DNA of 40,941 nucleotides from Deltaproteobacteria bacterium (GTDB lineage Bacteria > Desulfobacterota > Binatia > Binatales > Binataceae). Shown piece by piece: positions 3,650-31,988 of this stretch. The position numbers and the translations under genes are program-made. The notes under the pieces were generated by a model. That model was given only the letters and a program-made list of their open reading frames with translations, had not been told where the DNA came from and ran no database searches. Each line of letters opens with the position of its first letter. Within the stretch, counting starts at the first letter, position 1. The stretch lies in assembly GCA_003135855.1 (NCBI GenBank), contig PNBD01000015.1, positions 270,306 through 311,246 on the forward strand, in the 5' to 3' direction.

Positions 3650-4417
3650 ATGAGTATCATGCGTTGGCAAAGTGTAAGTGTCGCCATGTTTCTGGGGCTG
3701 GTATTGCTGAGTCTGGCTGAGATATCCCATGCCGCGGACGATCAACAAGCGCGGGAGGCCGTGGAACGGGTAGCTCAGCTGTTTAGCAGCAAGTCCAGCA
3801 TCGCTACCGTGAAAATGGAGATCACCAATGAAGATGGACAACGCAACCTCTCGATGAAGATCTGGTCGCTCGGAGAAAAGGTTCTTGTCCGCATCACCAA
3901 TCCTCCAGATGAAGCAGGCACCGCCATCCTGAAAGAAGGCAGCGACATCCGGTACTATCTGCCGAAATCGAATCGCACGGTTAAAGTTCCCGCTTCGATG
4001 GCTATGAGCTCGTGGATGGGCAGCGCCTTCACAATCGATGATCTGGTGAAACAGGCTTTCCTCACGCGCGATTACTCTATTAGTACCTCTTTCGAAGGTA
4101 ACCGCGGCGGGATTGCGGTGAAAGAATACACTCTGACACCGAAGCCAGATGCGGCGGTGGTGTGGGGGAAGATTGTTGTGCAAATTCGCCAAGCCGACTC
4201 GGCGCCGACCTGGCAGGGTTTCTATGGCGAGGACGGGCAACTGGTCCGGGAGCTTACCTTCTCTGACTACAAGCCGATGAGCGGCAAGCTCATTCCGACG
4301 CGCCTGGTCATGAGACCGGCGGACAAGGCTGGTGAGCAGACGACGATCGAGTACAACGATATCGCGTTCGACGTGCCGATCAGCGAGGAGACGTTTTCCC
4401 TGCCCAAACTTAAGTGA
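3650..4417 (+). CDS. LolA-like outer-membrane lipoprotein-sorting protein
   Basis: N-terminal signal peptide, then KMEITNEDGQRNLSMKIWSLGEKVLVRITNPPDEAGTAILKEG...IRYYLPKSNRTVKVP, the pattern of this family. Directly precedes the FtsX-like permeases. Confidence 0.75.
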   Translation: MSIMRWQSVSVAMFLGLVLLSLAEISHAADDQQAREAVERVAQLFSSKSSIATVKMEITNEDGQRNLSMKIWSLGEKVLVRITNPPDEAGTAILKEGSDIRYYLPKSNRTVKVPASMAMSSWMGSAFTIDDLVKQAFLTRDYSISTSFEGNRGGIAVKEYTLTPKPDAAVVWGKIVVQIRQADSAPTWQGFYGEDGQLVRELTFSDYKPMSGKLIPTRLVMRPADKAGEQTTIEYNDIAFDVPISEETFSLPKLK

Positions 4418-5676: not shown

Positions 5677-5678
5677 CA

Positions 5679-6971: not shown

Positions 6972-6984
6972 CAGAGAGGGCGCT

Positions 6985-7716
6985 ATGACCGAATGGGCGG
7001 TGGAACTGAAGGACGTGAGGAAGACCTACCGCTCCGGACCGATCGAGGTTCCGGCGCTGCGTGGCCTCTCTCTACAGATTGCTCCGGGGGAATTTGCGGC
7101 TACCGCCGGTCCGTCAGGTTCAGGCAAAACTACGCTGCTTAACATCATTGGTGGACTCGACCGAGCCGACACTGGCGAGATCTGGGTGGCAGGGCAGAAC
7201 CTTCAGCTGTTATCCTCGAGTGAGCTAGCCCATCTGCGTCTGCAGCGTATCGGCTTTGTATTTCAAACCTACAACTTGCTTCCTGTCCTTACCGCTTTGG
7301 AAAATGCCGAGTTTACCTTGCTCCTCCAGGGGGTGCCTGCGCGCGAGCGCAGGGAGAAGGTAGAAAAGCTATTTCTGGAAATCGGCCTGGCCGGCCTGGA
7401 AGATCGTCGCCCAGCGGAATTGTCCGGCGGGCAGCAACAACGGGTGGCTGTTGCTCGCGCGATGGTTACACAACCTGCGCTCATTCTGGCGGACGAGCCT
7501 ACGGCAAATCTGGACTCTGCCACTGCTATCGCCTTACTCGATGTCATGGAGCATCTCAATCGCACTACTGGTACGACATTCCTCTTTTCCACCCATGATC
7601 CTCAGGTCATGGAGCGGGCTCATCGTTTGATCCGTTTGCGAGACGGTCAGATAGCTAGCGACGAGGCACATGGTAAGCAAGGGGCTGCTGTAAGAGCCGA
7701 GAGAGATGCAGGCTGA
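6985..7716 (+). CDS. ABC transporter ATP-binding protein (LolD/MacB type)
   Basis: Walker A GPSGSGKTTLLNIIGGLD; signature LSGGQQQRVAVARAM; Walker B LILADEPTANLD. Confidence 0.92.
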   Translation: MTEWAVELKDVRKTYRSGPIEVPALRGLSLQIAPGEFAATAGPSGSGKTTLLNIIGGLDRADTGEIWVAGQNLQLLSSSELAHLRLQRIGFVFQTYNLLPVLTALENAEFTLLLQGVPARERREKVEKLFLEIGLAGLEDRRPAELSGGQQQRVAVARAMVTQPALILADEPTANLDSATAIALLDVMEHLNRTTGTTFLFSTHDPQVMERAHRLIRLRDGQIASDEAHGKQGAAVRAERDAG

Positions 7717-7730
7717 CTACTGAAAAATAG

Positions 7731-8714
7731 TTATCTGGGAGTCGACGAACCGCCGAGCAGTGCTGCGATCGGTGCGTGGGCTGCGGCGATTGCTGGTGCA
7801 GCCGCGATCGGTTGCGCGCCGATGACGTGGAAGCTGATAAGCTCCGTGGTGACGGCAGGGCCGCCGACAAAGGTGGTGCCTTCTTGCTTGAGCAGCCGAT
7901 AGGGTGGCGTCGACTGAAAGTAGAGCGTGTTCTTGGGAACTACCGGCTTGATGACACTTAGCACAAAGCGCGGCCAGTTTGGCATTACCGTCGCGATGTC
8001 GACTTGTGCGCTTACCTTGAGCGCGGAGAAGCTGCCGGCTGGCACGGTGATCTGTTCCATGCCTTTGGCCCAAACTTCCTGACCAACATAGCTATACGGC
8101 GTGATCTGCTGATGAATCATACCTTGGGCGCCGTCGCGAGGCGCGTCGAGGACGCGCAAAAACGCCATCCAGGGAACTGAGTCTGGATACAAGTCATGTG
8201 GCAGGTCGGCGGCCCCGGCCAGCCGCATCACGGTCGCGTCGTTACGCCAGAACGCACTCTGCAGCGCGCGACCATGATCGTACAGCGTCCATTGATACAT
8301 GGTGCAACCCTGGCGATGATTGGGAAACAGCCAGAAGGCGACTTCGAACTGACTGGCCGATAGGGTGGTCACCTCGACATGAATGGTGTCGTCGGCGATC
8401 ATTTCGTCCCACAACTTCACCTGGTTCAGAACCTCGCCCGTACGGTTCTCTGTTTGGCGGGTTTCGGATACTTCGGTGCCGGGTGGTGGCGTCATCAGGT
8501 CAATGCCGGACTTATCGCCGATCATCCCATGACCGATTAGCCCGCGTGCCACCAGCCAGGCATCCGTGGCGCCACCTGCATTCGACTTCGTGCCGGGCGC
8601 CAGAACTACATCCGAGCGGGCCACAGACGGATATAGTGTTGCAAGCGCGATCGACGCGGCAAGAAGTATTGGAGTCCCGAGACGGAGCGATAAGATTTTC
8701 ATTTTGAAATCCAC
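7731..8714 (-). CDS. Hypothetical secreted/periplasmic protein
   Basis: 327 aa ORF with signal-peptide-like N-terminus (LRLGTPILLAASIALATLYPSVARS); no family recognised. Confidence 0.6.
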   Translation of the reverse strand: MDFKMKILSLRLGTPILLAASIALATLYPSVARSDVVLAPGTKSNAGGATDAWLVARGLIGHGMIGDKSGIDLMTPPPGTEVSETRQTENRTGEVLNQVKLWDEMIADDTIHVEVTTLSASQFEVAFWLFPNHRQGCTMYQWTLYDHGRALQSAFWRNDATVMRLAGAADLPHDLYPDSVPWMAFLRVLDAPRDGAQGMIHQQITPYSYVGQEVWAKGMEQITVPAGSFSALKVSAQVDIATVMPNWPRFVLSVIKPVVPKNTLYFQSTPPYRLLKQEGTTFVGGPAVTTELISFHVIGAQPIAAAPAIAAAHAPIAALLGGSSTPR

Positions 8715-8983: not shown

Positions 8984-9736
8984 TCATTGCAGTTCTTGGC
9001 TCACCACCTGGAGGAGAAGGGGCTGATTCAGGAAGAAATGGTCGCCGGGAAGCATCCGCAGCGAGAAGGAATCACTCGTCTGAGAACGCCAGGCTTCAAG
9101 ATCGCTATCGTTCACTCTGTGATCCTGCAAGCCGCCAAACGCGGAAATAGGGCAGTTCAGGGGCGGCTCGGTCGAGTACGCGTAGGTTTCGTAGAGCGCG
9201 AAGTCCGCCCGCAAGAGCGGAAGCATGATCTCCATCAATTCTTGGTGGTCGAGCAGCTCGCTGGGAGTGCCGTTCAGCCGGCGCAGTTCGGCCAAAAAAT
9301 CTTTTCTTGGCAAGGCATGGATTGGCGGGCCTCGATGAGGGATTTGAGGCGCTCGACCAGCAGAAACAAACAGCCGAACAGGATGCACGCCATGTTGTCT
9401 GCGGAGCCAGCGGGCGAGTTCGAAGCCGACTAATGATCCGAGGCTGTGGCCGAAAAATGCAAAAGGCTTGTCAAGGAGTGGAACCAGCGCTTGCCCGAGG
9501 GCCTCGACCAGAGGCGAGAGTTGGGTGAAAGGACGTTCCATCAGCCGAGTGCCACGTCCTGGGAGTTGAATCGGGCAAAGCTCGACATCCCTCGGCAAGC
9601 CGTCAGACCAAGTGCGAAAAATCAAAGCGCCGGCTCCCGCATACGGGAAACAAAACAGGCGAAGTCGGGCATCCGGGTCGGGCTTGCGGAATGGAATCCA
9701 GGAATCAGAAGCGGCCGCGGTTGCGAGCCGGTTCAT
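8984..9736 (-). CDS. Type II thioesterase (external editing thioesterase, alpha/beta hydrolase)
   Basis: LFCFPYAGAGALIFRTWSDGLPRDVELCPIQLPGRGTRL; FFGHSLGSLVGFELAR nucleophile elbow; GDHFFLNQ catalytic His region. Confidence 0.92.
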   Translation of the reverse strand: MNRLATAAASDSWIPFRKPDPDARLRLFCFPYAGAGALIFRTWSDGLPRDVELCPIQLPGRGTRLMERPFTQLSPLVEALGQALVPLLDKPFAFFGHSLGSLVGFELARWLRRQHGVHPVRLFVSAGRAPQIPHRGPPIHALPRKDFLAELRRLNGTPSELLDHQELMEIMLPLLRADFALYETYAYSTEPPLNCPISAFGGLQDHRVNDSDLEAWRSQTSDSFSLRMLPGDHFFLNQPLLLQVVSQELQ

Positions 9737-9770
9737 TCAGAATCTTTACATAGAGAGTAGAACATAGAAT

Positions 9771-10010
9771 CTAACTCTTCGACGAACGGATCGGCTTTTC
9801 CTGCTGCTCCATTTTCCGCCTCAGGCTGAGTGGTCTCATGTCGGTCCACACTTCATTAATATAAGCGAGGCATTCCGCCTTAGGACCGGTCTTACCCTTA
9901 TCCGTCCAGCCTGGAGGGTTTTTCTTTTCGGCGGGCCAGATAGAGTACTGCTCTTCATGATTTACGACGACTTTGTAAGTTGTCGTATCTTCCTTGTCGT
10001 CCTTGTTCAT
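9771..10010 (-). CDS. MbtH-like protein
   Basis: 79 aa from the internal ATG at 10010: [53 protein letters not shown]. Canonical NxExQxSxWP, GW and WTDMRPxSLR motifs. The 170 aa ORF in the track extends spuriously upstream into the NRPS gene. Confidence 0.93.
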
Positions 10011-10023
10011 CTGGCGTCCCTCA

Positions 10024-13000
10024 TCACCTGTTCGATGGATTGATTCCATCGGCGAGCCATTCTTCACTAGCTCGTACCTGATCGAGGCAAGCCCGTAGCT
10101 TCTCAGCCAGGACTTCGACGTGAGGCTTGTAAACCATCGTTGCGTGATTGCCCGGAACGACCAGGACGTCCGTTCCTCCGGCAGCCCACTTACTCCAGCC
10201 CAAGGTCGGATCAGACGAGGGTTCCGAAAGCTCCTGTCCAGCCTTGAAGAGCGTGATTCGACCCGAGTAGCGATGCAGCACATAGTTTTGCGTAGCTCGA
10301 AAATCGGCCTTGCAAAGTTCGATGAATGGCTGCGCTTGGGACACTTCGATATCGGCAGGCATCAGGCCGGCTCTTTTCGCGTGCTCGAGCACACGTTCCA
10401 GCAGCTCGTGCTTGGGAAGGCGGGCGAGCGCGTCCCGGGGATCGAGTGAAAGACCGAAATAGCGGACAAAATCAACCAACAACCGCGCCTCGAAGTCCTC
10501 GTCGTCGAGTTCCTCGTCGGCAGTTGGAATGCGAGCATCCAGCAACGCTAACAAAGCGACCCTCTGCCCTTGCGCGTGAAGCTGTTGCGCCATGTCGAAG
10601 GCTACCATTCCTCCCATCGACCAGCCTCCCAGCAAGTAGGGACCTACCGGCTGCACCGTCCGTAGAGCTTCGATGTAGTAAGCGGCCATGTCTTCGATTC
10701 GCGAGTGAGGTTCCTGTCCCTCTTCCAGTCCTCTTGCTTGCAGGCCATAACAAGGTTGATCCGAGCCTAAGTGGTGCGCCAGATGAACGTAGGAAAAGAC
10801 ATGCCCGCCGGCCGGATGGATCAAGAAGAGAGGCCGTCGGTTGCCGCCCGGTTGAATAGCTACCAAAGATGAAGGTGGCGCTGCTTTGGCATGCTGGCCG
10901 AGAATATGTGCGAGATGCTCAATCGTCGCTCCTTGAAACACAGTGGCTAGCGGAACTTTCTTGCCCAGCCTTTTTTCGATCAATGCGAACAAACGAACGG
11001 CCGCCAGGGAGTGTCCACCCAGCTCAAAGAAATTATCCGTCACGCCGATGGGCCTGATACCCAAAACCTCTTCCCACAGATTGCTGAGCTGGAGTTCCAG
11101 AGCGTTTCGCGGCGCTACGAACGCCCTTCCCGGTTGGGACAGTGTTGATCCGGGCTCCGGCAGGGCACCGCGGTCTACCTTTCCGTTGGGCATCAGCGGT
11201 AGGGCATCGAGCGGCACGAAGACCGCAGGCATCATGTAATCGGGCAGCTTCTCTTTCAGAAAACCTCGCAACTCACTAGCCGTCGGCGTGGACTCTCGCT
11301 GGGCAACCACGTAGGCCACTAAATACTTCTCACCCGCCGCGTTTTCCCGAGCAAGGACGATAGCTTCTCGCACCGTCGGATGTTGGCGAAGCGCTGACTC
11401 GATTTCCCCTGGTTCGATACGGAACCCGCGGATCTTCACCTGATGATCAATTCGACCAAGGAACTCGATATTGCCGTCAGGAAGATAGCGGGCCAGGTCG
11501 CCGGTTTTGTACAGTCGCGCTCCAGGGACGCGGCTGAAGGGGTTCGGAACGAAATTCTCCGCGGTCAAATCGGCTCGATTGAGATAACCTCGAGCCAGGC
11601 AAGCGCCGCCAATATACAGTTGACCCGGAACTCCGACCGGAACCGGGTTACCGTACTTGTCTACAATGTAGCTCTCTCTGTTAGTGAGAGGACGGCCAAT
11701 CGGAATTCTCTGCAGAGGTGAGTGCTCGCGAAGCTGCGGCGTGATGTCAAAGGCAGTTGCAGTAATGGTCGCCTCGGTGGGCCCGTAAGCATTGATGAGG
11801 CGGATTGAACTCATCGGTGTGCGATGCCACAACTCAAGGAACTCAGACAGCATCGTATCTCCGCCAACAATAAACACTCTGGGTTGAATATTTGGGACCA
11901 ACTCCGCAAGACCCGCCCATTCTCGCGCCAGTTCCTGCCAGTAGCCAGTTGGAAGATTTAGTACAGTGAGTCCAAACGCCGAGACCTTCTTATGGAATTC
12001 TGTCGTCCGCCAAAGGTCGGCACTCATCATGACCAGCCGGGCCCCGACGATAAGAGTCGGGAGGATTTGCTCCAATGATAAATCGAAACTCAGTGAGGCG
12101 ATCTGGAGCACCCTATCGCTTGAATTTAGGTCGTAGTGCTTTTGAACGCTAAGGCAGTGCTCCGTAATCGAAGCATGTGAAACGAGAACTCCCTTGGGCT
12201 GGCCAGTGGACCCCGAAGTGTAGATTACATAAGCGAGGTTCTCAGGCACGACTAAGCAGATTGGGTTTTCAGGACTCTCCTGGGCGATGGTCTCCCAATC
12301 TGAATCCAGATAGACCACCCTGGCGTCGTGTTCAGGCAATTCCGGCAGCAGCGCCTTATGTGTCAGTAGTACTGGCACCTCGGCGTCTTCCAGCATGAAG
12401 GTGAGTCGCTCCTTCGGATACGCTGGATCAAGGGGCAGATACACCCCGCCCGCCTTTAGAATGCCCAGCAATCCGATCACTATCTTCAGCGAGTCCTTCA
12501 GACAGATGCCGACCGGTACCTCCGGTCCCACTCCCAGACCTCGTAGATGATTCGCCAGTTGATTCGCCCTGCGATTCAATTGTTCGTACGTCAGCTGCTC
12601 ATCTTCAAATACCAAGGCGATCGCGTCCGGTGTTCGCGCTACCTGCGCCTCAAAGAGTTGATGGATATTCAGATCCTTCGGCCAACCAGCCCTGGTATCG
12701 TTCCAAGTCACGAGTAGTTGCTGGCGCTCTGGTTCGGTCAAGAGCGTCAGGTCCGAGAGGCGTCGCTCAGGAGTGGCAGCGACAGCCTCAAGTAATGTCC
12801 TGAAATGGCCTAGCATGCGAATAATCGTCCCGGCCTCAAACAGATCGGTGTTGTAGGCCAAGGTTGCCGCCAGACCTTGCTCGGTGTCCGCGATATGTAG
12901 GGTCAAATCAAAGTGAGTCGTCCCGGTGTCGATCTCCACCGGGCTCAGGCTCAATCCGGGCAGCTCCAGGGTCTGCACCGCGGCATTCTGCAGCACGAAC

Positions 13001-16000
13001 ATCACCTGAAAAAGCGGATTGCGGCTTAAGTCCCTCGCCAGGTGTAGTTCCTCGACCAGCCTTTCAAAAGGCAGGTCCTGATGGGCATATGCTGCCAGAC
13101 ACACTTCCCGCACCCGGCGCAAGAGGTCGCTGAAACTGGGATTGTTTGAGAGGTCGGTGCGCAGGGCCAGTGTGTTTACGAAAAATCCGACTAGGCTCTC
13201 GATCTCCAGCCGGTTACGGTTAGCGATCGGCGTTCCTATGATGATGTCATCCTGACTCGTGTAGCTATGCAACAAACTTTGAAACGCCGCCAGCAGGGTC
13301 ATGAACAGGGTGACGCCTTCCTGGCGGCTTAGCGCCTTCAACCTATCGCCCACGGTCTCGGGCAATAAACAAAATTGTTGCGCGCCGCGATAAGTCTGTA
13401 CTACCGGTCTAGGGTGGTCCGCGGGCAACTCCAGAAGCGGAGGCGCGCCCAGCAGTTGCCGCTTCCAGAAGGTAAGCTGAGCTTCCAGAGCCTCGCCTTC
13501 CAACCACTGCCGCTGCCAGTGAGCGAAGTCTGCATACTGGATTGGCAGCTCAGGAAGAGGCGAGGGCCTTGCGGAACAATAGGATTGGTAGAGTACGGCC
13601 ATCTCCCGGATCAGTATGCCGGTCGACCAACCATCGGAAACGATATGATGCATCGTCAGGAGCCCGACGTGCTCGTTCTCGCCCAAGCGTAGCACGCTAG
13701 CACGTACGAGCGGACCTTCGGCCAAATCGAACGGCCGCTGCGCCTCGTTGGTCGCGAGGCGCTGGACCTCGGCCTCACGCTCGGTCTCGGGCAGCTCCCG
13801 CAAATCAACTATTTGAATCGTCAGCGTCAGGTGCGGTGCAATGATCTGAACCGGTCGGCCATCCACAATGGTAAAGGTCGTCCGCAAGACTTCATGGCGC
13901 CTCACGATTTCGTTCAGACTCTGTTGCAAAGCCAACACGTTGAGCGGTCCCTTCAGACGGACGGCGGCGGGAAAATTATAAACGGAACTGCCCGGCTCGA
14001 GCTGATCGATGAACCACAGCCGCTGTTGAGCAAAGGAGAGGGGCAGCTCTCCGTCCCGCGGAACCGGTACAATAGGCGGCGCCTGTAGTCCCGTCCCGCG
14101 GCCCAGGTCGATATTTTCAGCCAGGCCAGCAACGGTGGGCGCCTCGAACAGACGGCGCAGCGGCATCTCCACCTTGAAGGCTTCGCGGATTCGGGAAACG
14201 ACCTGAGTAGCCAACAGCGAGTGCCCGCCTAGCTGGAAAAAGTTATCGTAGATACCCACTCGCTCGACGCCGAGGACTTGACCCCAGATCTCGGCGAGCA
14301 GCTCCTCTGTAGGGGTGCGGCATGGCACATAGGCCTCGTCCAGTTCGGGCCGTTGCCCGTCAGGCGTCGGCAGTGCACTGCGGTCTACCTTCCCATTGGG
14401 GGTCAGCGGGAAGGTGTCCAGCAGCATAAAGACCTTGGGCACCATGTGCTCGGGCAGTTTGTGGTTTAGAAAATCGCGCAGCTCGGTAGCGGTAGGACGC
14501 GATTTGTCCTGCGCGGCCACATAGGCCACCAACCGCTTTTCTAAGGGCCCGTCTTCGTGAACCAGGACGATAGCCTCGCGCACACCCGGGTGCTGTCCGA
14601 GCGTACCTTCGATTTCCCCAAGTTCGATGCGGAACCCTCGAATCTTGACCTGGTGATCAATCCGGCCGAGATACTCGATGTCACCCTGGGGCAGGTAGCG
14701 TGCGAGGTCCCCGGTCTTGTACAACCGCGCGCCCGGCTCGGAGCTAAAGGGGTCTGGAATAAACTTCTCAGCGGTTAAATCGGGTCGCCTGACATAGCCT
14801 CGAGCAAGACCCACTCCGCCGATATACAAGTCACCGGCGACGCCGATCGGAACAGGACGAAGTAGGCCGTCTAGAATATATATGCGTGCATTCGGTATAG
14901 GTCGTCCTATAGGAATTGCCGACTGAGCGTTGAGCTCATCGCACGGCCAATACGCAGAATCGATGATGGCCTCAGTCGGTCCGTACACATTGTACAGCTT
15001 CGCCTTGAAGCGGCTTTGGAACCGCCTGACGATCTGAGGCGTCAAACTCTCGCCACCGCACATGACTGCGCGCAGGGTGAGGCTTTCGTCTAAGGCGGGC
15101 TCCTCAACAAGGAGCCGGAGCAACGATGGCACGCAGTGAAGAATTGAGATCCGCTCGCTGCGGATGGTCTCTGCGAGGTATCGGCTATCACGATGACCAC
15201 CCGGTTCTGCGATTACGAGGGTTCCTCCTGAAAGCAGGGTGGGGAAGAACTCGCGCCCGGCGGCATCGAAGGTAATGGGAGTCTTCAAAAGACAGCGGTC
15301 GAGAGCCGACAGTTCAAGAGTTTCAGTTATCCAGTTGACCGCGTTACTAAGTCCACCGTGTTCGACCATGACCCCCTTCGGTGATCCGGTTGAACCCGAG
15401 GTATAGATCACGTAAGCAGCGTCCCTGGTAGTTGCCGTAGGTACCGGATTGCTCTCGCTATCACGGGCGATCAATTCCCAGTCTGAGTCCAGGCAGAGGA
15501 CGTGGATCTCCTGCTTGGATATATCGTCCACGAGATGTTCCTGCGTCAGCAGCACTGGCGCGTGAACATCTTGTAGCATGTAAGCTAGGCGATTCTTGGG
15601 ATAATCGGGATCCAATGGGACGTAGGCGCCACCCGCCTTGAGAACGCCAAGGATCCCCACGACCATCTCGAGGCATCGCTCCATGCAAATGGCAACTGGA
15701 ACTTCCGGTCCAACCCCGAGCCCTCGCAAGTGATGCGCGAGCTGATTGGCACGAGCGTTGAGCTCGGCGTAGGAGAAATGGCGGCCCTCGAAAACGACGG
15801 CGACGTTCTCCGGCGTGCGAGCCACCTGCTCCTCGAATAGTTGGTGAACGCACGTGTCTTTAGGATAGTCATTGCTGGTGTTGTTAAACTCAATCAGCAG
15901 TTGACGCCGGTCCACTGCGCTTACGATCTCGAAGTCATCGATCTCAGCGTCGGGATTGGTCGTGACGCTTTCCAGCAAAGTCTGAAACTCTCTCTGTAAG

Positions 16001-17250
16001 CGATCGATATCTTCACCCCGGAACAATCTGGAATCGTAATGGAGCTCGGTGACTAATGAATCTTCCCTTTGAACGCATGAGAGTTTAAGGGTGAACCGAT
16101 CGGAACAGGCGTATCGCTTTTGAATGGAGAAGCTAACCCCGGCGGCGGAGTATTTCGCAGGGTCTTCCGTGAATTCGAAACCAACGGGCAAGAAGGGAGG
16201 CGACCCCGCATCAGTCTGCGATCCTGGGATTTGTTCCCAACTGAAGTACTCCTGCCATGCGATGGCCTCGCGCACAGATTCGTTAGTCCGCTTCAGGAGT
16301 TCACTGAACCCAAGGTGTCCTTCCAGATGACAAGCAAGGGGCAAGGTCTTAGCAAACAGACCGACTGCATCCACTAGCCCCTCATAGGTACGGCCGTCGC
16401 AACTCATGCCCATGACAAACTCTGACTGGCCGGTTAGGCGCCAGAGAAGAGTCTCCCAGCAAGCCAGGAGGAATACAGACGGCGAAGTATCATACTTACG
16501 GATGAGGGTCGCGATACTTGCGGTTAAATCAGGGTTGATGGGCGAGGTCAAAGAGTGTGGTTCAAATGTCGATCTTTCGAAGGGCCGCTGAAAGGGAAGT
16601 TGCGGGCACATAGCGGTGGAGAGTTTCCGCTCCCGCCACTGTTTTCTTCCTTCCGCTGTTTCTTCCGATTCCAGTAAATTATTCTGCCACTCGGCCGCAT
16701 CGGCGTATTGCAGCGGTTCATCCGATAGTTCCTCGCAAGCCTGGCAAGCTGAATAGCAACGTGCGAGTTCCCGCACTAAATTATTGAGTGAGGTCGCATC
16801 CGCGCAAAACGAAGACAGATTGATAAGCAAGATATGTCTGTCGGGCGTCAGAGTAAGGAGGGACAGATGCGAGAGCGGACCTCGATCAAGATCAAAGGCC
16901 AACTCGGCCGCCTGCCGATATAGCGCGTCGATTGTAGCCTTTTGCGCAGTCGCTTGCCGGCGAAGATCGCAACCGCTCAGATCGTAATGCTCGATCGATG
17001 GCATTGCGCCCGCCACGACGCGCTGAAGCGGAACGGTCATGCCGCGTCCGCATTGAAAAACCGTGCGCAGGACCTCGTGCCGATTGAAGATTCTCTGCAG
17101 TGCGGCTCTCAGAATCCCGGTGTCAAGGCTGCCTTCGATCAGGACCGAGCACTGGGCATGATAAGGCAGGCTGCTGTCGGCTTGCGCCAACGACCACAGG
17201 TGCTTTTGCTGAGGTGAAAGCCGGAACCCTTCATTAGCGTCCGTTTGCAT
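10024..17250 (-). CDS. Non-ribosomal peptide synthetase, C*-A-PCP-C-A-PCP-TE
   Basis: Two A domains ([14 protein letters not shown] / [31 protein letters not shown]), two PCPs ([28 protein letters not shown]), internal C with HHIVSDGWS, and C-terminal type I TE ([14 protein letters not shown]). The first C domain has SSFCADA in place of HHxxxDG. Confidence 0.95.
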
Positions 17251-18841
17251 TCGTGTACTTCGGCTTTCCTTGTACGGGCTCGTTGCCCAGGTGCGATGCG
17301 CTAAGAGCTTTCCGCCTGACCTGCTGTAACTTCTGAATATTGAGTTCTCGGTGCTCTTTTCGGATCCGGGCCTGCTCCTGTGTGTCCGTTTCTGCGAGTA
17401 GTTCTTTTAGTGCGCTCAACCTGGTAGCGGGCTGTCCAACGACATGTCGCAAGAGCGTTTCGAAGTATCCCGACATTCGGGCAATGGTAGACGGATCAAA
17501 CAGGTCGGTGTTGTATCGCATCGAAGCCGAGAGCGATTCCGGCGTTTCGATTATCAACAATACCAGGTCGAGAGTTGCTGCCCGACGTTCGAGAGGAAAG
17601 GACTCCAGCACCAGACCTCCGGGATTCATGCGAAGGCCGGTTCCGCCCGCCTCGAACGTTGGTGCTCCTTGTTCAGCGAGTCGGTGCGGTTTGTCCAGCA
17701 CGAACATCACCTGGCAGAGCGGGGGGCGGCTAAGATCTCGAGACGGCCTAAGCCGTTCGACCATCAGGACGGTGGGGAAGTCCTGGTGCTCGAGAGCGGC
17801 CAGCACCGTTTGTCGCACCTGGCCAAGAAACTCCAGAAAGGTCGGATTGCCGGATAGATTCGCCCTCAAGACTACGGGGTTCGTAAAAAGACCGACGATT
17901 CCTTCGAACTCGGCCCGGCTCCGGCCCACCATCGGGGAACCGACCAGGAGATCTTCCTGGCCGGTGTGATAGGAGAGCACAATCTGGAACACCGACAGCA
18001 GCACCATGTAGAGGGTCGCGCCATGAGACTTAGCGAGCGCCTTCAGCCGGGAGCTCGCTTCCGTGTCGATAGTGAAGTCGTGCGAGGCTCCGCGATAGGT
18101 CTGAATGATTGGCCGCGGCCGATCGGTTGGAAGCTCGAGTACTGGTAACTGCCCAGCTAGTTGTTTCTGCCAGTACGCCCACAGCCGTTCTCCTTGCTGG
18201 CCCGCCAGCATCTCGGCCTGCCAACGGACATAGTCGGTATATTGTAGATCAAGAGGAGGCAGGGGCGCTTTCAAGCCGGCTCTCTCGGCCGGGTATAGCA
18301 CGCCGAGTTCATTCAGGAGCACCGCGAGGGACCAGAAATCGATCACGATATGATGGACGACCATCAGAAGAATGTGTTCCTCTGCCGATCGCATGATCAG
18401 ACTGACCCGCAGCAGCGGCCCTCGTTCCAGATCAAACGGGCGATACGCTTCCTCGAGTAGTCGGGCCTTCAGTTCGTCTCCGCTCCAGGTTGATCCGTCC
18501 ACTTCCTCGAAGTGAACCTTCAGGTGTTCGTGGACCTGCTGGAGCGGTTTGCCAGTCTGCGCGGGAAAAGTAGTACGTAGCGAAGGATGGCGATCAACCA
18601 AGGTCTGTAACGCGCGACGCAGTGCCGCGACATCTACCTCGGTCGAGATGCGCGCCGCGAAATTGACGTTGTAAACGGTGCTCTCCGGCGCCAGTTGATA
18701 GAGAAACCAGATGCCCTGCTGATTATACGAGAGAGGATAAAATAATTTGGCGCCGCTCGCCTGCTTGCGAAGAAGTTGGGCAAGGAGGGCACGCTTTTCG
18801 CCAGATGAGAGATCGGCGATTCGCTGGGACGTGCTGCTCAT
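17234..18841 (-). CDS. Stand-alone NRPS condensation-domain protein
   Basis: 535 aa with one C domain (YPLSYNQQGIWFLYQLAP; HHIVIDFWS; YRGA; DLLVGSPMVGR), charged N- and C-terminal tails, and no A or PCP domain. Confidence 0.92.
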   Translation of the reverse strand: MSSTSQRIADLSSGEKRALLAQLLRKQASGAKLFYPLSYNQQGIWFLYQLAPESTVYNVNFAARISTEVDVAALRRALQTLVDRHPSLRTTFPAQTGKPLQQVHEHLKVHFEEVDGSTWSGDELKARLLEEAYRPFDLERGPLLRVSLIMRSAEEHILLMVVHHIVIDFWSLAVLLNELGVLYPAERAGLKAPLPPLDLQYTDYVRWQAEMLAGQQGERLWAYWQKQLAGQLPVLELPTDRPRPIIQTYRGASHDFTIDTEASSRLKALAKSHGATLYMVLLSVFQIVLSYHTGQEDLLVGSPMVGRSRAEFEGIVGLFTNPVVLRANLSGNPTFLEFLGQVRQTVLAALEHQDFPTVLMVERLRPSRDLSRPPLCQVMFVLDKPHRLAEQGAPTFEAGGTGLRMNPGGLVLESFPLERRAATLDLVLLIIETPESLSASMRYNTDLFDPSTIARMSGYFETLLRHVVGQPATRLSALKELLAETDTQEQARIRKEHRELNIQKLQQVRRKALSASHLGNEPVQGKPKYTNANGR

Positions 18842-21800
18842 TCACTAACTTCCTCTTTAGCTAGTAGGTCAGTGAGCAACGAATTCACTTCCTCATCCGA
18901 ATACTGGTCAAGACTTTCCAACCGATGTTCATTGATGCCGCCGTTTTGCTGCTCCCCGTTGCGGTGCGTAATTGCCGAGGAAAGCGGCACCGATGAGGTA
19001 GAAGTATCAGATGTAAGTAGTTGAAGCAGTTGCGCCGCCGCCTGTTCAACGCTAGGTCCCGAAAGAAATGTCACCATCGGCACATTCACGTCCAGGTCAA
19101 CCGCGATCCGATTCTTCAACTCGACCGCCATCAAGGAGTCCAGTCCAAGATTGCTAAGCGGTTGCTGTAGGTCGAGCTTGGATGCGGACACCCCGAGCAC
19201 TCGAGCCACTAGCTCAGTCAAGTAGGACTGCAATAAATTGCCGCGCTCCGCTGGTTGTGCGGCAAGGAGCGTACTCCTCTTCTCGCGCGCTTGACTCGCT
19301 TGTGGTGCGTTGTTGGCTTCCTCTCGCGCAAGCTCAGCGAGCAGTGGTGATTCGGTGCCAGCCGGATAAAACTGGCGATACGTTCGCCAGTCAACCGGCA
19401 CCGCCGCGACCTGGGTCGAGCGTTGCCGGAGCAATCGTTCCAACACTTGCAGCGCTTGCTCGGGTGCGATGCTCTTGATTCCGAGTAGCGCGAGACGTGT
19501 GGCGAGGCGCTTCCCTCCAGGCGTCTCCGCGAAGCCCAATCCGCTCCACGCTCCCCAATTGACGCTTAGCGCAGGCTGGCCTTGGGCGCTTCGATGATGA
19601 GCGAGGGCATCCAGGAAGGCGTTGGCCGCAGCATAGTTACCCTGGCCAGGCTGGCCTAAGAGGGAACCCGCGGAAGAGAAAAGTACAAAGAAGTCCAAGG
19701 GGGCGTCTTCGAGCAGGCGATGAAGCAGCCAGGCACCGATCATCTTGGGCCGCATAACCGAAGTTAGTGCTGCCGCATCGAGTTGCGTCAGTAGTCCATC
19801 CTGCAGAACTCCCGCCGCGTGCACTATTCCTCGAATCGGCGGCCATCCCTCAGATCGAAACTCATCTAGAAACGCGCTTAGCTGTACTTCATCCGCCACG
19901 TCTACCGGGGCAAGATGCACGCTCGCGCCTAAGGCTTCCAGTCCGCGAATCGCGGCAATTTGATGACTCAGCCGGCTCTCCGCTTCTACAGAGTTCCAGC
20001 GCGCGCGCGCCGGGAGCTTAGTGCGTCCCATGAGGATCAACCGCCGCGCCCCTTGCTCCACCATCCAGCGCGCGACTGAAAGGCCGAGGTCTCCCAAGCC
20101 ACCGGTGATCAGGTAGGTGCCATCACTGCGCCAGCTAAGGGGAACTTCCTGCGTGGCGGATCGACGCTTCCGCAGCAAACGGCCTACGTAGCGTCGCGCT
20201 TGTCGGAACGCAATCTGATCCTCTCCGTCTGGCGCGGAGATTTCTTGCCATAAATGATGAGCGGCATCGTCGAGCAGCGAAGCCCTGGGCTCCAGATCGA
20301 TCAGTCCGCCCCAGAGCATAGGGTGCTCCTGAGCTATCACGCGACCCAGTCCCCAAAGAGGCGCTTGGGCGGTGTCCAGAGGTAAAGCCTCTTCCCCCGC
20401 TGGCTGAGCTCCCCGCGTGATAAGCCACAAACGAGGACCCTGATGCCGTTCGACACGAGCGAGCTCCTGCACCAACCGTAAGACATTACCGCAGCCCAGC
20501 GACTGCGCTGCCTCCAGCGATGCCACTGTGGTCTCTTCTACACGACCAGCATCAAGACTCCAGAGATGGACAACCGCCCGGCAGATTGGCTGATCAGGTG
20601 CTAGCACTACCTCCAGGAGCTGTCGGAGGTCCTCTGGCCGCTCGGGACTGATGCGAAAATGACCACCGTCTGTGCGCTCGTACGAGTCCCCGCGAGTTAC
20701 AAGGATGCTTCGATCTCCTTGTGCGTTGATCAGTGCTCCGAGGGCTTCACCGACGTTGTTGCTGTCGGCAAAGATCAGCCAGTTACCCGGGCTGGTCGGC
20801 GCGGACGTTTCCTGGGATGGCTGTCCATTCGGACGCTCGCGTCGTTGCCATTGAAATTCGTAAAGCCAGTCGTCCAGATTCTCAATGGCAGCGCTCCTGG
20901 TATCGCGACTAACATTATCGAAGCGTAGTCCGAGAATTTCGACTGCTATGTGCCCGGTTTCATCCAGCAGCCGCACCTCTCCCTTGATCGTATCGGCCTC
21001 GCGTTCTTGCAGATGGGCGTGACTCCATAGATGCAAACCCGGACGACCGTGGATCCGAATCTCATCGATATGAGTGGGCATGTAGGTGCCCTGTTGGTCG
21101 CTTTCTGTTGCTTGAGCAGCTAGACCTGCTCCAAAGGTCTGGAAGCAGGCGTCTAGAGTCGCCGGGTTGAGTTGACCGGCTCCAAACTCTCGATTCGGCC
21201 CATCAGGAACTCTCACTTCTCCGAGCATTTCACCGTTGCATCGCCACAACTGAGTAATGCTCTGGAAAGATTCGCCATACTCGACACCACTTTCGCGAAG
21301 CCTTCGATAGTAGTCTTGTCCTGAGATCTGCTCCGAGCATCGAGCCTGGACCTTAGCGATCGCTTCCTGTTCGATAACCGGGGGAATGCCAGGGCTCTGC
21401 TGAAGGCAAATCTTGGCTGTCGCATGTAGTGTCCACGATCTATTGGCTAGCTCTACCTCGTGCGGGCAACTGTAGATATGAACGGACGCGGTACCGTTTG
21501 CGCCAGGAGCAACGATCACCTGAACGGTGCGCGTTCCGTCGTCAGGCAGGAAGAGGGCGCGTCGAAATTCCATGTCTTTCAACACAAAGGATTGTGACGA
21601 GAACGCCTCAGCCGCGGCGGCCCATGCCATCTCCAGATAGAGCGCAGCGGGGAGCACTGCGACACCTTCGATGCGATGATCATCGAGATAAGGCAACGCG
21701 CGCTTGTCGAGAGTGACTTCCCAGAAGTGCGTATCCGCTTGCGCCGATTTGAAATGCCGACCGAGAAGAGAATGCGTACCCGTTCGATCACGCGAGGCGT

Positions 21801-24800
21801 AATGCGATCGATCGCCGATCTCGCCCACTGGATCGTCCAGCCAACAACGCTCCCGCTGCCACGGGTAGGACGGAAGCTGAACGAATCGGCCTCCCTCTGG
21901 ATAAATTCGGCTCCACTCAATCGGATAGCCCAAGGTATAGAGGGCACCGAGCGATCCAAGCATGACCGAGTGTTCTTCTTCCTCACGCCGCAAGGAAGGA
22001 AGCACACTGCCTTCATTGCGAGAGTGATTAAGTCCTTGCTGAATGCTACTGAGTAAAATGGGATGCGGACTGACCTCCAGAAAGATGTCATGTCCATCTT
22101 CCAGCAACTGCTCAACCGCAGTTGAAAAGAGCACCGGCTCTCGGAGGTTTCTCGTCCAATAGAGCGGGTCGAAGCTCAAGCCGTCGCCAACCTGGCCGGT
22201 TACCGTCGAGTAGATCGGCATCGATGCGGGTCGAGGATCCAGCCCTTCCAACGCCTGCAACAAGTCGGCGCGCAAGGGATCCATCTGCGGGCTATGAGCG
22301 GCAAAATCTACTTTGACCATTCGGCAGAAGATGTTCTGACGCTGCAATCGATCCACGATTGTTTCCAGCGCTTCGGGATCTCCCGACAAAACCGTCGACG
22401 TGAGGCCATTGCTGACAGCGATCGATACCCGATCTTCGTAGCCGGCCAGGGCGCGCCGAGCGTCCGCGATGGAAAGTTCCACCGACGCCATCGCTCCGTG
22501 CCCAATCGTCGGCTTCACCACGCGACTGCGCGCGCAAATCACTCGTGCCGCATCTTCGAGGCTTAGCGCGCCAGCGACGTGAGCGGCCGCAACCTCACCC
22601 ATGCTGTGACCCACGACGGCGTGCGGCTCAATACCCCAGGATCGCCACAGCGCCGTCAGCGCCACCTGAATCGTAAACAGCGCAGGCTGCAGGATGTCGA
22701 TTTCGTTCAACCGGGAGTGAGCCGTATCGGTGGTGGTGAGTTCCGCAAGCAAGGACCAGTCTCCGTAGGGACGCATCGCGCGGTCGCAGCGTTCCACGGC
22801 TTCGCGAAAGACCGGTTGCTGCTCCAAGAGCGTTCGCCCCATCCCAAACCATTGGGACCCTTGCCCAGGAAACACAAAAACTAGTTTTCTCTGTCGATCC
22901 GAAAGCTTGCGGCCGGAAGACAGCCCCGGACGAGCTTCTTCCCGTGAATAAGCTTCCAAGCCTTCAGTCAGTTGCTCCGCCGACTTGCCGGTCACACTGA
23001 GACGGTAGTCGTGATGGCTCCGCCGCATACTGGCGCTGTAACAGATGTCGTGCAGGGACGCCGTGGACTCCGAGCGAGTCAGAACGTCCCGGTAGACTTG
23101 AGCAACCGATCGGAGAGCCTCCGGGCTGCGCGCCGACAGCGGCAGCAGGTATGCGGATTTAGCATCGCGAGTTTCGTTCTTGCGTTCCGCCACGTGTCTT
23201 TCCGAATCGGATCGAGGAGCTTCTTGCAAAACTACATGGGCATTGGTGCCGCCAAAACCAAATGAACTCACCCCGGCCAATGCTGGAGCCGCATCCGTAG
23301 GCCATCGATCCAAAGTAGTCTGCACTCGCAGCGGGAGCTGATCAAAAGGGATGTGCGGGTTGGGCTCCTCGAAATGCAGGCTAGGTGGGATCTCCCGATA
23401 CTTCAGCGCCAGCGCCACCTTGATTAAGCCAGCGACACCCGCTGCGGCTTCAAGGTGACCCAGGTTGGTTTTGACCGAGCCAACACGACATGGGCGCTCG
23501 GGAGGACGGTCCACAGCTAGCACCGCGCCCAAGGCTTTCGCTTCGATCGGATCGCCTAAGAGTGTGCCGGTGCCATGGGCCTCGACATATTGAACGTCGC
23601 CGGGCGAGACCTCGGCTCGCCGATAGGCTTCGCGGAGGACCGCTTCCTGGGCGAGAGGATTCGGCGCCATCAGTCCGTTGCTACGTCCGTCCTGATTCAC
23701 CGCGCTGCCACGAATGACGGCATAGATCGAATCACCGTCGCCCAAGGCCTTCGATAGCGGTTTGAGAACGACGATCCCGGCGCCTTCACTGCGAACGTAG
23801 CCGTTAGCTCGCGCATCGAAGGCTTTGCAGCGTCCGTCGGGAGCCATCGCCCCAGCTTTGCTGAAATTGATCGTAATCGCCGGCGAAAGGATCAGATTCA
23901 CGCCACCCGCCAAGGCCAGTGCGGACTCTCCGCTTCGCAGGCTGCTGCAGGCTTGGTGGACCGCGACGAGTGATGACGAACAGGCGGTATCGAGGGCAAT
24001 ACTCGGTCCGCGGAAATCGAATACATACGAGATACGGTTGGCGGCGATGCTTAATGCGTTGCCGGTCCCCGCGTACGCATCGATGCGCTCAAAGTCATGC
24101 AACTGTATGCGGCCATAGTCGTTGTTCGAGATGCCGATGAACACACCAGTGGGCGTGCCTGCCAGCCGCTCGCGCATTTGTCCGGCATCTTCCAGCGCTT
24201 CCCAGGTCACCTCGAGCAACAGACGTTGCTGCGGGTCCATTCGCGCAGCTTCCCGCGGCGAGATACCAAAGAAATGCGGATCGAACTGATCGACCTGCTC
24301 GATGAAACCGCCCCAGCGCGTGGCCATCTTGCCCGGGGCCGCCGGATCGGGATCGTAAAAATCGTTCAGGTTGAAGCGCTCCGCGGGAACTTCCCGGATT
24401 GCATCTACGCCATTGCGAAGTAGGTTCCAGAAAGCTCGCGCGTCCTTTGCGCCGGGAAAGCGGCAGCCAATGCCGATGATGGCGATCGGTTCGGCATTTG
24501 TCTCCCGAACCCAACTCACATCGGTGGCCGACTGCGACGGGCTCGATGAATCCGCCAGGTGGTGCGCGAGAGCTTCGATGGTCGGACACTCGTATGCCAG
24601 CTCAGCCGGAAGCTGTCGTCCCAGCCATTCTGCGAGTTCACCCGAGAGACTGACCAGCTCGGTGGATCCCAAACCGTAGCTGGCGAATGGTTCCGCGACG
24701 TCTATTTCGTTCGCTTCGATTTCCAGCAGCGCGGAAAGTCTGGATACCAGCCAAGCCTGGATCGCTTCCGCGCCGGGATCTAAATTCCCGTTCTCGCGGT

Positions 24801-24855
24801 GTCCGTTTCGCTCCGCATGATGCGGCAAAGCGCCGTTAATTCGACTTCCAGCCAT
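18838..24855 (-). CDS. Type I polyketide synthase, ACP-KS-AT-DH-KR-ACP
   Basis: N-terminal ACP (YGLGSTELVSLSGEL); KS (DTACSSSLVAVHQA, EAHGTGTLLGDPIE, KTNLGHLEAAAG); AT (GHSMGEVAAAH); DH (HRIEGVAVLP and LDACFQ); KR (TYLITGGLGDLGLSVARW); C-terminal ACP (LGLDSLMAVELKNR). Start assigned to the internal ATG at 24855, overlapping the FAAL stop (TAATG), rather than 24909. Confidence 0.95.
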   Translation of the reverse strand: MAGSRINGALPHHAERNGHRENGNLDPGAEAIQAWLVSRLSALLEIEANEIDVAEPFASYGLGSTELVSLSGELAEWLGRQLPAELAYECPTIEALAHHLADSSSPSQSATDVSWVRETNAEPIAIIGIGCRFPGAKDARAFWNLLRNGVDAIREVPAERFNLNDFYDPDPAAPGKMATRWGGFIEQVDQFDPHFFGISPREAARMDPQQRLLLEVTWEALEDAGQMRERLAGTPTGVFIGISNNDYGRIQLHDFERIDAYAGTGNALSIAANRISYVFDFRGPSIALDTACSSSLVAVHQACSSLRSGESALALAGGVNLILSPAITINFSKAGAMAPDGRCKAFDARANGYVRSEGAGIVVLKPLSKALGDGDSIYAVIRGSAVNQDGRSNGLMAPNPLAQEAVLREAYRRAEVSPGDVQYVEAHGTGTLLGDPIEAKALGAVLAVDRPPERPCRVGSVKTNLGHLEAAAGVAGLIKVALALKYREIPPSLHFEEPNPHIPFDQLPLRVQTTLDRWPTDAAPALAGVSSFGFGGTNAHVVLQEAPRSDSERHVAERKNETRDAKSAYLLPLSARSPEALRSVAQVYRDVLTRSESTASLHDICYSASMRRSHHDYRLSVTGKSAEQLTEGLEAYSREEARPGLSSGRKLSDRQRKLVFVFPGQGSQWFGMGRTLLEQQPVFREAVERCDRAMRPYGDWSLLAELTTTDTAHSRLNEIDILQPALFTIQVALTALWRSWGIEPHAVVGHSMGEVAAAHVAGALSLEDAARVICARSRVVKPTIGHGAMASVELSIADARRALAGYEDRVSIAVSNGLTSTVLSGDPEALETIVDRLQRQNIFCRMVKVDFAAHSPQMDPLRADLLQALEGLDPRPASMPIYSTVTGQVGDGLSFDPLYWTRNLREPVLFSTAVEQLLEDGHDIFLEVSPHPILLSSIQQGLNHSRNEGSVLPSLRREEEEHSVMLGSLGALYTLGYPIEWSRIYPEGGRFVQLPSYPWQRERCWLDDPVGEIGDRSHYASRDRTGTHSLLGRHFKSAQADTHFWEVTLDKRALPYLDDHRIEGVAVLPAALYLEMAWAAAAEAFSSQSFVLKDMEFRRALFLPDDGTRTVQVIVAPGANGTASVHIYSCPHEVELANRSWTLHATAKICLQQSPGIPPVIEQEAIAKVQARCSEQISGQDYYRRLRESGVEYGESFQSITQLWRCNGEMLGEVRVPDGPNREFGAGQLNPATLDACFQTFGAGLAAQATESDQQGTYMPTHIDEIRIHGRPGLHLWSHAHLQEREADTIKGEVRLLDETGHIAVEILGLRFDNVSRDTRSAAIENLDDWLYEFQWQRRERPNGQPSQETSAPTSPGNWLIFADSNNVGEALGALINAQGDRSILVTRGDSYERTDGGHFRISPERPEDLRQLLEVVLAPDQPICRAVVHLWSLDAGRVEETTVASLEAAQSLGCGNVLRLVQELARVERHQGPRLWLITRGAQPAGEEALPLDTAQAPLWGLGRVIAQEHPMLWGGLIDLEPRASLLDDAAHHLWQEISAPDGEDQIAFRQARRYVGRLLRKRRSATQEVPLSWRSDGTYLITGGLGDLGLSVARWMVEQGARRLILMGRTKLPARARWNSVEAESRLSHQIAAIRGLEALGASVHLAPVDVADEVQLSAFLDEFRSEGWPPIRGIVHAAGVLQDGLLTQLDAAALTSVMRPKMIGAWLLHRLLEDAPLDFFVLFSSAGSLLGQPGQGNYAAANAFLDALAHHRSAQGQPALSVNWGAWSGLGFAETPGGKRLATRLALLGIKSIAPEQALQVLERLLRQRSTQVAAVPVDWRTYRQFYPAGTESPLLAELAREEANNAPQASQAREKRSTLLAAQPAERGNLLQSYLTELVARVLGVSASKLDLQQPLSNLGLDSLMAVELKNRIAVDLDVNVPMVTFLSGPSVEQAAAQLLQLLTSDTSTSSVPLSSAITHRNGEQQNGGINEHRLESLDQYSDEEVNSLLTDLLAKEEVSE

Positions 24856-26660
24856 TACTGATTCTTCGCGGAGTACTCCAGCGTCCCGTCGCGAAACCGA
24901 GCCTCGCAAACACCGCGCTGAACCTTGCCGCTGGGAGTCCGCGGAACGCCTCCCAATTTGAGCAATACGACCGCATGCACCCGCACGTCATGGTCTTCCG
25001 CCACCGCGCCCCGAATGGCGCGAACCACGGCGTCGGCGTCCGCTGGAGACCGCCCGTTCGAATGGCTGCCGTTTGAATGAGCGCGCGATTCGCCATTCAG
25101 TTGATGTCGCTCCGGTTGATAGTGGCGCTCGACCTCGACTGCAATGATCAGACGTTCCTCGTCGGCGACATCGACTGAGAACGCCACACAACCACCCGGC
25201 CGCACAGCCGCATGACTCTGCTCCACGGTCAATTCGATGTCGTGGGGATAGAGATTGCGGCCGGCGATGATGATCAGATCCTTAAGCCGGCCGGTGACAA
25301 AAAGCTCGCCGTCTTTCAAGAATCCCAAATCGCCCGTGCGCAGAAACGGACCCTCACCGCTATCTGCGAGGCAGGCGTGGAAGGTGAGCTCGGTTTCCTC
25401 GGGCCGGTTCCAATAGCCCTGGGTCACGCTCGGACTCGATATCCAAATCTCCCCGACCTCATCCGGTGCACACGCGGTCATCGATTCAGGATGAACGATA
25501 ACGATTTTTGTGTCTGACATCGCGTGACCGCATCCCACAAGCGTGCGGACGTTTAACTGCTGGTCGGAGGTCTCTGCGACGCCGTTGTGTTCAAGCGCTG
25601 CAGCCTGGGTCGTGCACAGGATGGGCTCATCTTTCACAAATCCACCCGCCACGATCAGAGTGGCTTCGGCGAGTCCGTAACACGGGTAGAAGAAGTTCGG
25701 CCGGAAACCACAAGATCCAAACGTCGCTGCAAACCGTTTCAGGGTGTCCGCTCGGATTGGCTCGGCGCCGCTGTACGCTACCCTCCAATTGCTGAGGTCG
25801 AGCGCGCTCTGCTGCTCGGGAGTAATTTTACGAGCGCACATTTCGTAAGCGAAGTTGGGACCTCCACTGATCGTGGCTTGGTAGTGCGAAACAGCCTCCA
25901 GCCAGCGCACCGGCCGCTGAAGAAAGGACTGCGGCGGCATCAGAACGCACCCACGTCCTCCATACAGAGGTTGGACAATACCATTGTTAAGTCCCATATC
26001 GTGGAAAACCGGGAGCCAGGTCACAGAGAAATCGTCCGATCCAATCTCGAATGCCTGACTGATATGGGCCGAGTTCTCGAGCAGATTCCCGTGACTGACC
26101 ATCGCGCCTCGCGGTACGGCGGTGGAGCCCGAAGTGTATTGGAGCAAAGCCAGCGTGTTGCTGGTCGCCGCAGGGTCCTGCCATTCCTCAGCCGCGCCGC
26201 TGACAACCACGTCGGTTGCCAACCAGCGCATCGTCCGTAGTTCAGGAGCTTGCGCGAACAAACCCTCGAGCTTTGAGAGGATCGATGACGTGGTCAGCAC
26301 CAGCGTCGGTTGCGCATCGTTTGCGATGGCCCGAAACCTGGTGAGAGTCCGCTGCGGCCGGGCCATGTTCGGCAAGGGCAAAGGAACGGCGATGACGCCG
26401 GCATACATGCATCCAAAAAAGGCGGGGATGAACTCAAGACCCGATGGATAGAGTAATAGAGCGCGCTCTCCGCTTGCTCGGTAGCCTTGGAGCAATGCGC
26501 CAATAGCGCGTGCTTGCCAGTCCAAGGCCGCCAAGGTCAATTTCGCTCCTTCTGTTTCTCCGTCGACCAGGTAGGTGTACATCCGCAGGTCTGGCTGCCG
26601 GAGCGCCCGCCCGTGCAGAAGGTCGACGAGCGTAGAAGGTTTCGCGTTAGTTCGATTCAC
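24855..26660 (-). CDS. Fatty acyl-AMP ligase (FAAL), stand-alone starter-loading enzyme
   Basis: TLVDLLHGRALRQPDLRMYTYLVDGETEGAKLT; LLQYTSGSTAVPRGAMVSHGNL; FHDMGLNNGIVQPLY; RTGDLGFLKDGELFVTGRLKDLIIIAGRNLYPHDIE. These are FAAL hallmarks. GTG start. Confidence 0.95.
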   Translation of the reverse strand: MNRTNAKPSTLVDLLHGRALRQPDLRMYTYLVDGETEGAKLTLAALDWQARAIGALLQGYRASGERALLLYPSGLEFIPAFFGCMYAGVIAVPLPLPNMARPQRTLTRFRAIANDAQPTLVLTTSSILSKLEGLFAQAPELRTMRWLATDVVVSGAAEEWQDPAATSNTLALLQYTSGSTAVPRGAMVSHGNLLENSAHISQAFEIGSDDFSVTWLPVFHDMGLNNGIVQPLYGGRGCVLMPPQSFLQRPVRWLEAVSHYQATISGGPNFAYEMCARKITPEQQSALDLSNWRVAYSGAEPIRADTLKRFAATFGSCGFRPNFFYPCYGLAEATLIVAGGFVKDEPILCTTQAAALEHNGVAETSDQQLNVRTLVGCGHAMSDTKIVIVHPESMTACAPDEVGEIWISSPSVTQGYWNRPEETELTFHACLADSGEGPFLRTGDLGFLKDGELFVTGRLKDLIIIAGRNLYPHDIELTVEQSHAAVRPGGCVAFSVDVADEERLIIAVEVERHYQPERHQLNGESRAHSNGSHSNGRSPADADAVVRAIRGAVAEDHDVRVHAVVLLKLGGVPRTPSGKVQRGVCEARFRDGTLEYSAKNQ

Positions 26661-31700: not shown

Positions 31701-31988
31701 GGGCATGATGCGGTCGCAAGCGCGATCGAAGCGGGCCGAATCCGTTTTCGACCGATCATGATGACGGCCTTAGCGATGGTACTCGGCATGCTGCCGATGG
31801 CCCTGGGATTGGGCGCTGGGTCCTCGCAGAACTCACCGCTCGGCCGCGCCGTAATCGGCGGCCTGCTGGCTGCGACTCTGATGACGCTGTTCGTCGTGCC
31901 GGCAGTTTATTCGATCTTCGGCCGCACACTCATCACCAAGGCGGAGCGCGACGCCAGGATCAACGCAATCACGCAACCCGGCGCGTAA
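28799..31988 (+). pseudogene. RND efflux transporter permease (AcrB-like), interrupted by a frameshift near 31616
   Basis: ORF 28799..31708 carries the RND N-terminal and central regions (FPAINVPVVMVVWNYPGMSALDMER; IALAIGMLVDDATVEVENIHRN). The missing C-terminus continues in another frame at 31620..31988 (MGTIMAVGVGVANGNLLVTFANE...RPIMMTALAMVLGMLPMALGLG...). Confidence 0.8.

Follow-up and report, generated by a model that had tools for sequence, protein, structure and literature searches.

A lipopeptide assembly line of Candidatus Binatus with an interface-type domain and no adjoining hydroxylase gene

We analysed a 40,941-nucleotide stretch (the window) of the 356-kb contig PNBD01000015.1 from a 4.5-Mb soil metagenome-assembled genome (MAG) that belongs to the uncultured phylum Binatota and shares its genus with Candidatus (Ca.) Binatus soli UBA7539. 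The window holds a gene cluster of a known type, the fatty acyl-AMP ligase (FAAL)-polyketide synthase (PKS)-nonribosomal peptide synthetase (NRPS) lipopeptide cluster, and this cluster is conserved in Ca. Binatus. On balance we favour a reading in which this assembly line makes a lipodipeptide, the first condensation (C)-like domain of the NRPS is a non-catalytic interface domain whose hydroxylase partner was lost, the domain is kept probably for docking of a stand-alone C protein, and an adjoining LolA/FtsX/ABC operon exports the product. No description of the Ca. Binatus cluster was found in the published literature searched. Three Binatota biosynthetic gene clusters have been reported as the first of the phylum (PMC8692599); the present one offers a conserved, testable natural-product pathway for an uncultured phylum with few reported clusters.

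The interface domain and its hydroxylase partner

The genome holding the window is designated G000, and G017, G018, G021, G030, G010, G038, G075, G019, G131 and G047 are other Binatota genomes. Domains of the cluster proteins were called with Pfam, and the FAAL also with NCBIfam. The NRPS has two Pfam Condensation stretches, and residues 10-459 gave a full-length phmmer match to Txo2, which places the first domain in the C superfamily. The catalytic motif HHxxxDG is lost from this domain; relatives have PSLCADA or SSQLADA at the position. Five Binatus-type and 11 cyanobacterial domains formed one clade of 16 in our tree (support 100/100), and 51 catalytic-type C-superfamily domains fell outside it. 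Those 11 cyanobacterial homologues adjoin a TauD/SyrP-like dioxygenase, either as a protein of its own or in fusion with the C domain upstream, and the cyanochelin B cluster record AP017310 holds one cyanobacterial member of the clade. Thus the NRPS begins with a domain that we assign as an interface domain and predict not to catalyse condensation. Such domains, the subject of Reitz et al. 2019 (PNAS 116:19805), reportedly belong to the C superfamily, lack HHxxxDG, stand before an adenylation (A) domain, have a SyrP/TauD-type beta-hydroxylase as partner and bring this partner to the residue bound on the carrier protein. They are now annotated by antiSMASH 8, with Reitz et al. 2019 cited (PMC12230676). 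An AlphaFold model of the domain (five sequences) had a pLDDT of 47 and was not used. Proteobacterial plasmid matches (about 31% to the interface query) proved to be ordinary C domains, and no plasmid record had ≥60% identity to the stand-alone C protein or the interface domain.

In G010, from another Binatota family (f2), a 362-amino-acid protein with a Pfam TauD domain is encoded exactly between the stand-alone C and the interface domain. In the window, G017, G018, G021 and G030 the C and interface genes overlap or touch, with no gene between them. When the G010 hydroxylase was used as a query against 148 genomes of the class, no match was found in G000, G017, G018, G021 or G030; these five have an interface domain and no partner hydroxylase of this kind. 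In G038 and G075 C is fused directly to the first A domain (A1) with no interface domain, the fragmented G019 reads likewise, and G131 has C joined to an A domain resembling the second one (A2). Comparison of G010, the Ca. Binatus type and G038/G075 thus gives three states of one assembly line: hydroxylase plus interface, interface only, and neither. Because a hydroxylase is present both in G010 and in the cyanobacterial relatives, we infer that the hydroxylase-bearing state is ancestral. The interface domain would go back to a hydroxylating ancestor with the arrangement C - TauD - interface-A-peptidyl carrier protein (PCP), and with the hydroxylase lost in Ca. Binatus residue 1 should be unhydroxylated. 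Relatives with both, with the interface alone or with neither form a natural experiment on the role of the interface domain.

Selection on the interface domain and the tail of the C protein

A basic tail motif closes the stand-alone C protein of interface-bearing Binatota (NIQKLQQVRRKALSAS in the window, NIQKLKHVKRKNIITSQ in G017) and resembles the N-terminus of TauD proteins. A profile was built solely from 11 TauD N-termini, each tail was compared with 500 shuffles, and 688 open reading frame (ORF) C-termini were ranked. All six Binatota tails outscored every shuffle. The top 13 ranks, and 14 of the top 15, went to C proteins encoded immediately before an interface module; two more such proteins ranked 79 and 128, with a tail that is similar by eye. 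The fused C-A proteins of G038, G075 and G131 have no such tail. Nostoc ATCC 43529 and Goleter also have the tail, and there a methyltransferase and/or asparagine-synthase-like gene, not TauD, lies between C and interface. Interface modules at L036:18290-20954 and L048 (Goleter) are preceded by an asparagine-synthase-like gene (plus a methyltransferase in L036), which suggests that interface domains serve other trans enzymes besides TauD.

From these likenesses, the tail would dock the C protein, and the TauD N-terminal motif the hydroxylase, to the interface module; the interface domain of Ca. Binatus would be retained most likely as a dock for the stand-alone C protein. A wider proposal, which we put forward tentatively and judge somewhat more apt to fail than to hold, is that interface domains are general docking platforms for one short motif, carried at the C-terminus of C proteins and the N-terminus of hydroxylases, and that in Ca. 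Binatus docking of C to the interface alone holds the split module together. The shared tail gives a concrete, mutable prediction of the way in which hydroxylases and stand-alone C proteins reach their module, useful for NRPS engineering.

The main alternative to docking by the tail is that the tail is a remnant of an ancestral C-TauD fusion and that the interface domain is vestigial, held only by its fusion to A1 and slowly decaying. C-TauD fusions with the same linker motif occur in Trichormus and Nostoc carneum, no partner enzyme was found in the genomes, and the HHxxxDG position drifts (SSFCAD, PSLCAD, SSQLAD). Over the interface, the ratio of nonsynonymous to synonymous divergence (dN/dS) was 0.18-0.21 when the window was compared with its relatives; within the trio of G017, G018 and G021 it was 0.38-0.41, and the remaining NRPS domains of the trio gave 0.14-0.24. 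The domain is therefore constrained, perhaps less than its neighbours: with dN/dS below 1 and the frame open in 5/5 genomes, selection still holds it. Furthermore, interface domains accompanied by an active TauD likewise diverge faster than their own A domains (identity ratio mostly 0.6-0.8), and G038 and G075 are without domain and tail together. We consider a vestige unlikely.

Retention for docking has points against it, as has the reading of which it is part. The trio's interface dN/dS is about twice that of neighbouring domains and also fits slow decay. The support for docking is co-occurrence and likeness of sequence. The host MAG is 90% complete, so an enzyme could act in trans from elsewhere, and G047 carries the LolA/FtsX operon with no adjoining NRPS.

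Synonymous divergence (dS) between the window and G017 was 1.2-3.4 over the interface (15796-17250) against about 0.6, and it was already raised across the later portion of the C gene (17234-18361). Because of this jump, that portion and the interface domain are probably a block exchanged by recombination. Relaxed selection, at first read from the low interface identity (55%), was dropped since the codon analysis shows raised dS.

It is improbable, in our view, that the interface domain is served in trans by a hydroxylase, or by another tailoring enzyme, from elsewhere in the genome. Four further TauD-family genes are present in the host genome, one of them on this contig, and in some Nostoc clusters a methyltransferase and an asparagine-synthase-like gene precede the interface module in place of TauD; however, at E<=1e-3 the G010 hydroxylase had no match among the four or anywhere in the other Binatus genomes.

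The assembly line, its predicted product and the neighbouring operon

The cluster lies on the minus strand at 8984-26660 and is complete on the contig, with six co-directional, overlapping or nearly touching genes in the order FAAL, PKS, stand-alone C, NRPS, MbtH and type II thioesterase (TEII) (Table 1). A preliminary description of the window had claimed this tight packing and this domain content, and coordinates, Pfam matches and intact motifs bear out both. It had also called the cluster complete, which is right for the FAAL, acyl carrier protein (ACP), PKS, NRPS and thioesterase (TE), all with intact motifs, but from an evolutionary standpoint is doubtful, since the hydroxylase that usually accompanies an interface domain is absent. 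Its range covers the six genes, whereas the conserved unit extends to the operon at 2691-8714; and the cluster, not recognised there as a known pathway, has architectural relatives in Nostoc and Leptolyngbya. At least four relatives (G017, G018, G021 and G030, 54-92% identity per domain) have the same domain order and a conserved sequence, so the cluster is not a chance arrangement. The only three C-type domains found in the host genome all lie within it.

The PKS frame is open from 24909; by reading of the sequence its likely start is the ATG at 24855, overlapping the FAAL stop. The FAAL is expected to activate a fatty acid and load it on the N-terminal ACP of the PKS, after which the ketosynthase (KS), acyltransferase (AT), dehydratase (DH) and ketoreductase (KR) would add one C2 unit, probably from malonyl, and leave a 2-enoyl chain. 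ACP and PCP serines were intact on motif inspection. Inactivity of DH or KR, which had been named as able to change the predicted chain, was looked for: the motifs of both are intact as first described, and no enoylreductase or methyltransferase was found in the cluster domain search. Every relative that has a DH retains its catalytic residues. The G075 cluster (L057) is without DH and its product is predicted to carry a 3-hydroxyacyl chain in place of the 2-enoyl one; thus the acyl part varies within the cluster family.

The stand-alone C protein is most likely the catalyst of the first (PKS-to-NRPS) coupling, because HHIVIDF is present and it groups with hybrid-type C domains. It would couple the 2-enoyl chain to a Glu/Gln-like residue on PCP1; the internal C domain would add the second residue from A2, and the TE would release the lipodipeptide. 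The 2-enoyl lipodipeptide proposed earlier survives as the simplest colinear reading (one reducing PKS round, two A-PCP pairs, a TE), although the three C-type domains outnumber the two couplings, and the first of them in the NRPS appears non-catalytic.

Our column mapping of the A-domain codes is supported by its return of recognised Asp, Thr, Ser and Gly codes in other domains. The A1 code DARHMGVIDK is invariant in 8/8 readable Binatota genomes, with or without an interface domain, and differs from the Asp type; among published codes, it is presumably nearest to Glu/Gln. The A2 code is DLENIGAITK in the window and DVENIGAITK in two relatives. A literature search with the ten-letter A1 and A2 codes gave no match, and a six-letter search gave only the related DVENAGVVTK, the closest published code found for A2, from the 3-amino-6-hydroxy-2-piperidone (Ahp) position of cyanopeptolin (PMC2533009). 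With this as the closest code, a basic A2 residue (Orn/Lys/Arg) was dropped. A search of the host genome for an ornithine/lysine N-oxygenase gave one useful match (48 bits, other contig), to a promiscuous family, and no evidence for a hydroxamate route. The predicted product is likely a 2-enoyl-acyl-(Glu/Gln-like)-(uncertain residue).

The genes at 2691-8714 adjoin the cluster across genera, in G017, G018, G021, G030 and G038. Of the 41 genomes of the family, 6/7 with the cluster have the FtsX gene and 1/34 without it. The Lol-like operon is a good candidate for exporting the product and would probably move the lipopeptide across the periplasm. Upstream of the FAAL, the resistance-nodulation-division (RND) pump, 3-hydroxyisobutyrate dehydrogenase (HIBDH), aldo-keto reductase (AKR) and AAA genes are not conserved neighbours and were excluded from the cluster. 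The RND pump gene is in two overlapping frames (28799-31708 and 31620-31988; region 28799-31988), a possible frameshift or assembly error, and a regulator-like pair of AAA_16 ATPase and tetratricopeptide repeat (TPR) protein lies at 34298-37846 on the minus strand.

Table 1. Features of the cluster and its neighbouring operon, with positions in the window
Feature	Position	Strand	Basis
FAAL, 601 aa	24855..26660	-	Pfam AMP-binding and AMP-dom_DIP2-like; top NCBIfam matches to FAAL families
Type I PKS, ACP-KS-AT-DH-KR-ACP	18838..24855	-	Pfam, domain coordinates, active-site motifs
PKS ACP1	24535..24774	-	
PKS KS	23209..24504	-	DTACSSSL/EAHGTGT/NLGHLE
PKS AT	21925..22899	-	GHSMG
PKS DH	20875..21789	-	HxxxGxxxxP and DxxxQ
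PKS KR	19525..20799	-	S-Y-N
PKS ACP2	19000..19254	-	
Stand-alone catalytic condensation protein, hybrid-type, after PKS	17234..18841	-	Pfam Condensation E=3e-107; HHIVIDF; tree
Proposed docking tail at the C-terminus, motif ELNIQKLQQVRRKALSAS	17294..17347	-	Above all 500 shuffles with TauD N-terminus profile; rank 6/688 ORF C-termini
NRPS, interface(C-like)-A1-PCP-C-A2-PCP-TE, 2408 aa	10024..17250	-	Pfam
Predicted non-catalytic interface-type domain, C superfamily (first ~460 NRPS residues)	15871..17250	-	HHxxxDG lost; clade
SSFCADA in place of HHxxxDG	16795..16815	-	Alignment
A1 domain, code DARHMGVIDK	14356..15855	-	
PCP1	14101..14325	-	GGHSL
Catalytic C domain, residue 1 to residue 2	12706..14058	-	HHIVSDG
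A2 domain, code DLENIGAITK	11155..12666	-	
PCP2	10891..11115	-	GGHSL
Type I thioesterase	10027..10845	-	GWSMG
MbtH-like protein	9771..10010	-	Pfam MbtH; true start ~10010 by reading of sequence
TEII	8984..9736	-	Pfam Thioesterase; GHSLG
Conserved neighbour, family unassigned (no Pfam match)	7731..8714	-	Adjoins cluster in five relatives
ABC ATPase, LolD-like, probable export	6985..7716	+	Pfam ABC_tran; synteny
FtsX/MacB-type permease 2	5679..6971	+	
FtsX/MacB-type permease 1	4414..5676	+	
LolA-like periplasmic carrier (PF17131)	3650..4417	+	
LPG_synthase_TM family membrane protein	2691..3647	+	

Comparison with known systems

A lipopeptide siderophore of the cyanochelin type is also improbable: the FAAL-PKS-C-interface order is that of cyanobacterial siderophore clusters, but there are only two residues, the A1 code differs from DLTKIGxVGK, the Asp code of those clusters, no siderophore receptor gene was identified within the window, and neither the Asp A domain nor the beta-hydroxylase of beta-hydroxy-Asp lipopeptide siderophores was found. 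The cyanochelin B cluster has been characterised in Leptolyngbya sp. NIES-3755 (PMC12628792), and the potashchelin order is C-TauD-C-A_Asp (PMC7100376). Both are comparable in the FAAL start and the C - TauD - interface/C - A order (PMC12628792, PMC7100376), and both differ as characterised beta-hydroxy-Asp siderophores with many modules and an active hydroxylase.

The Ca. Binatus domain agrees with the interface domain of Reitz et al. in its C-superfamily membership, the absence of HHxxxDG, its place before an A domain and its TauD-associated clade; it differs in having no hydroxylase partner and an A1 code that is neither Asp nor His. Within Binatota, G010, G038 and G075 share the FAAL-PKS-C line. 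Unlike Ca. Binatus, G010 retains TauD, while G038 and G075 have C fused to A with no interface domain and G075 also lacks DH. The plasmid cluster of Nostoc sp. NIES-3756 has the same PKS, stand-alone C and interface-A-PCP, then C-A, MbtH and TEII, but differs in its TauD, the Asp code in A1, extra modules and iron-export-type ABC genes. The uncharacterised cluster of Nostoc indistinguendum CM1-VF10 (L029) shares FAAL, PKS, C and interface-A, with identities of 71% for KS, 54% for C, 50% for the interface and 66% for the start of the A domain. It differs in that TauD lies between C and interface, C is fused to the PKS, FAAL-ACP is a separate gene, no DH was found and the contig ends early.

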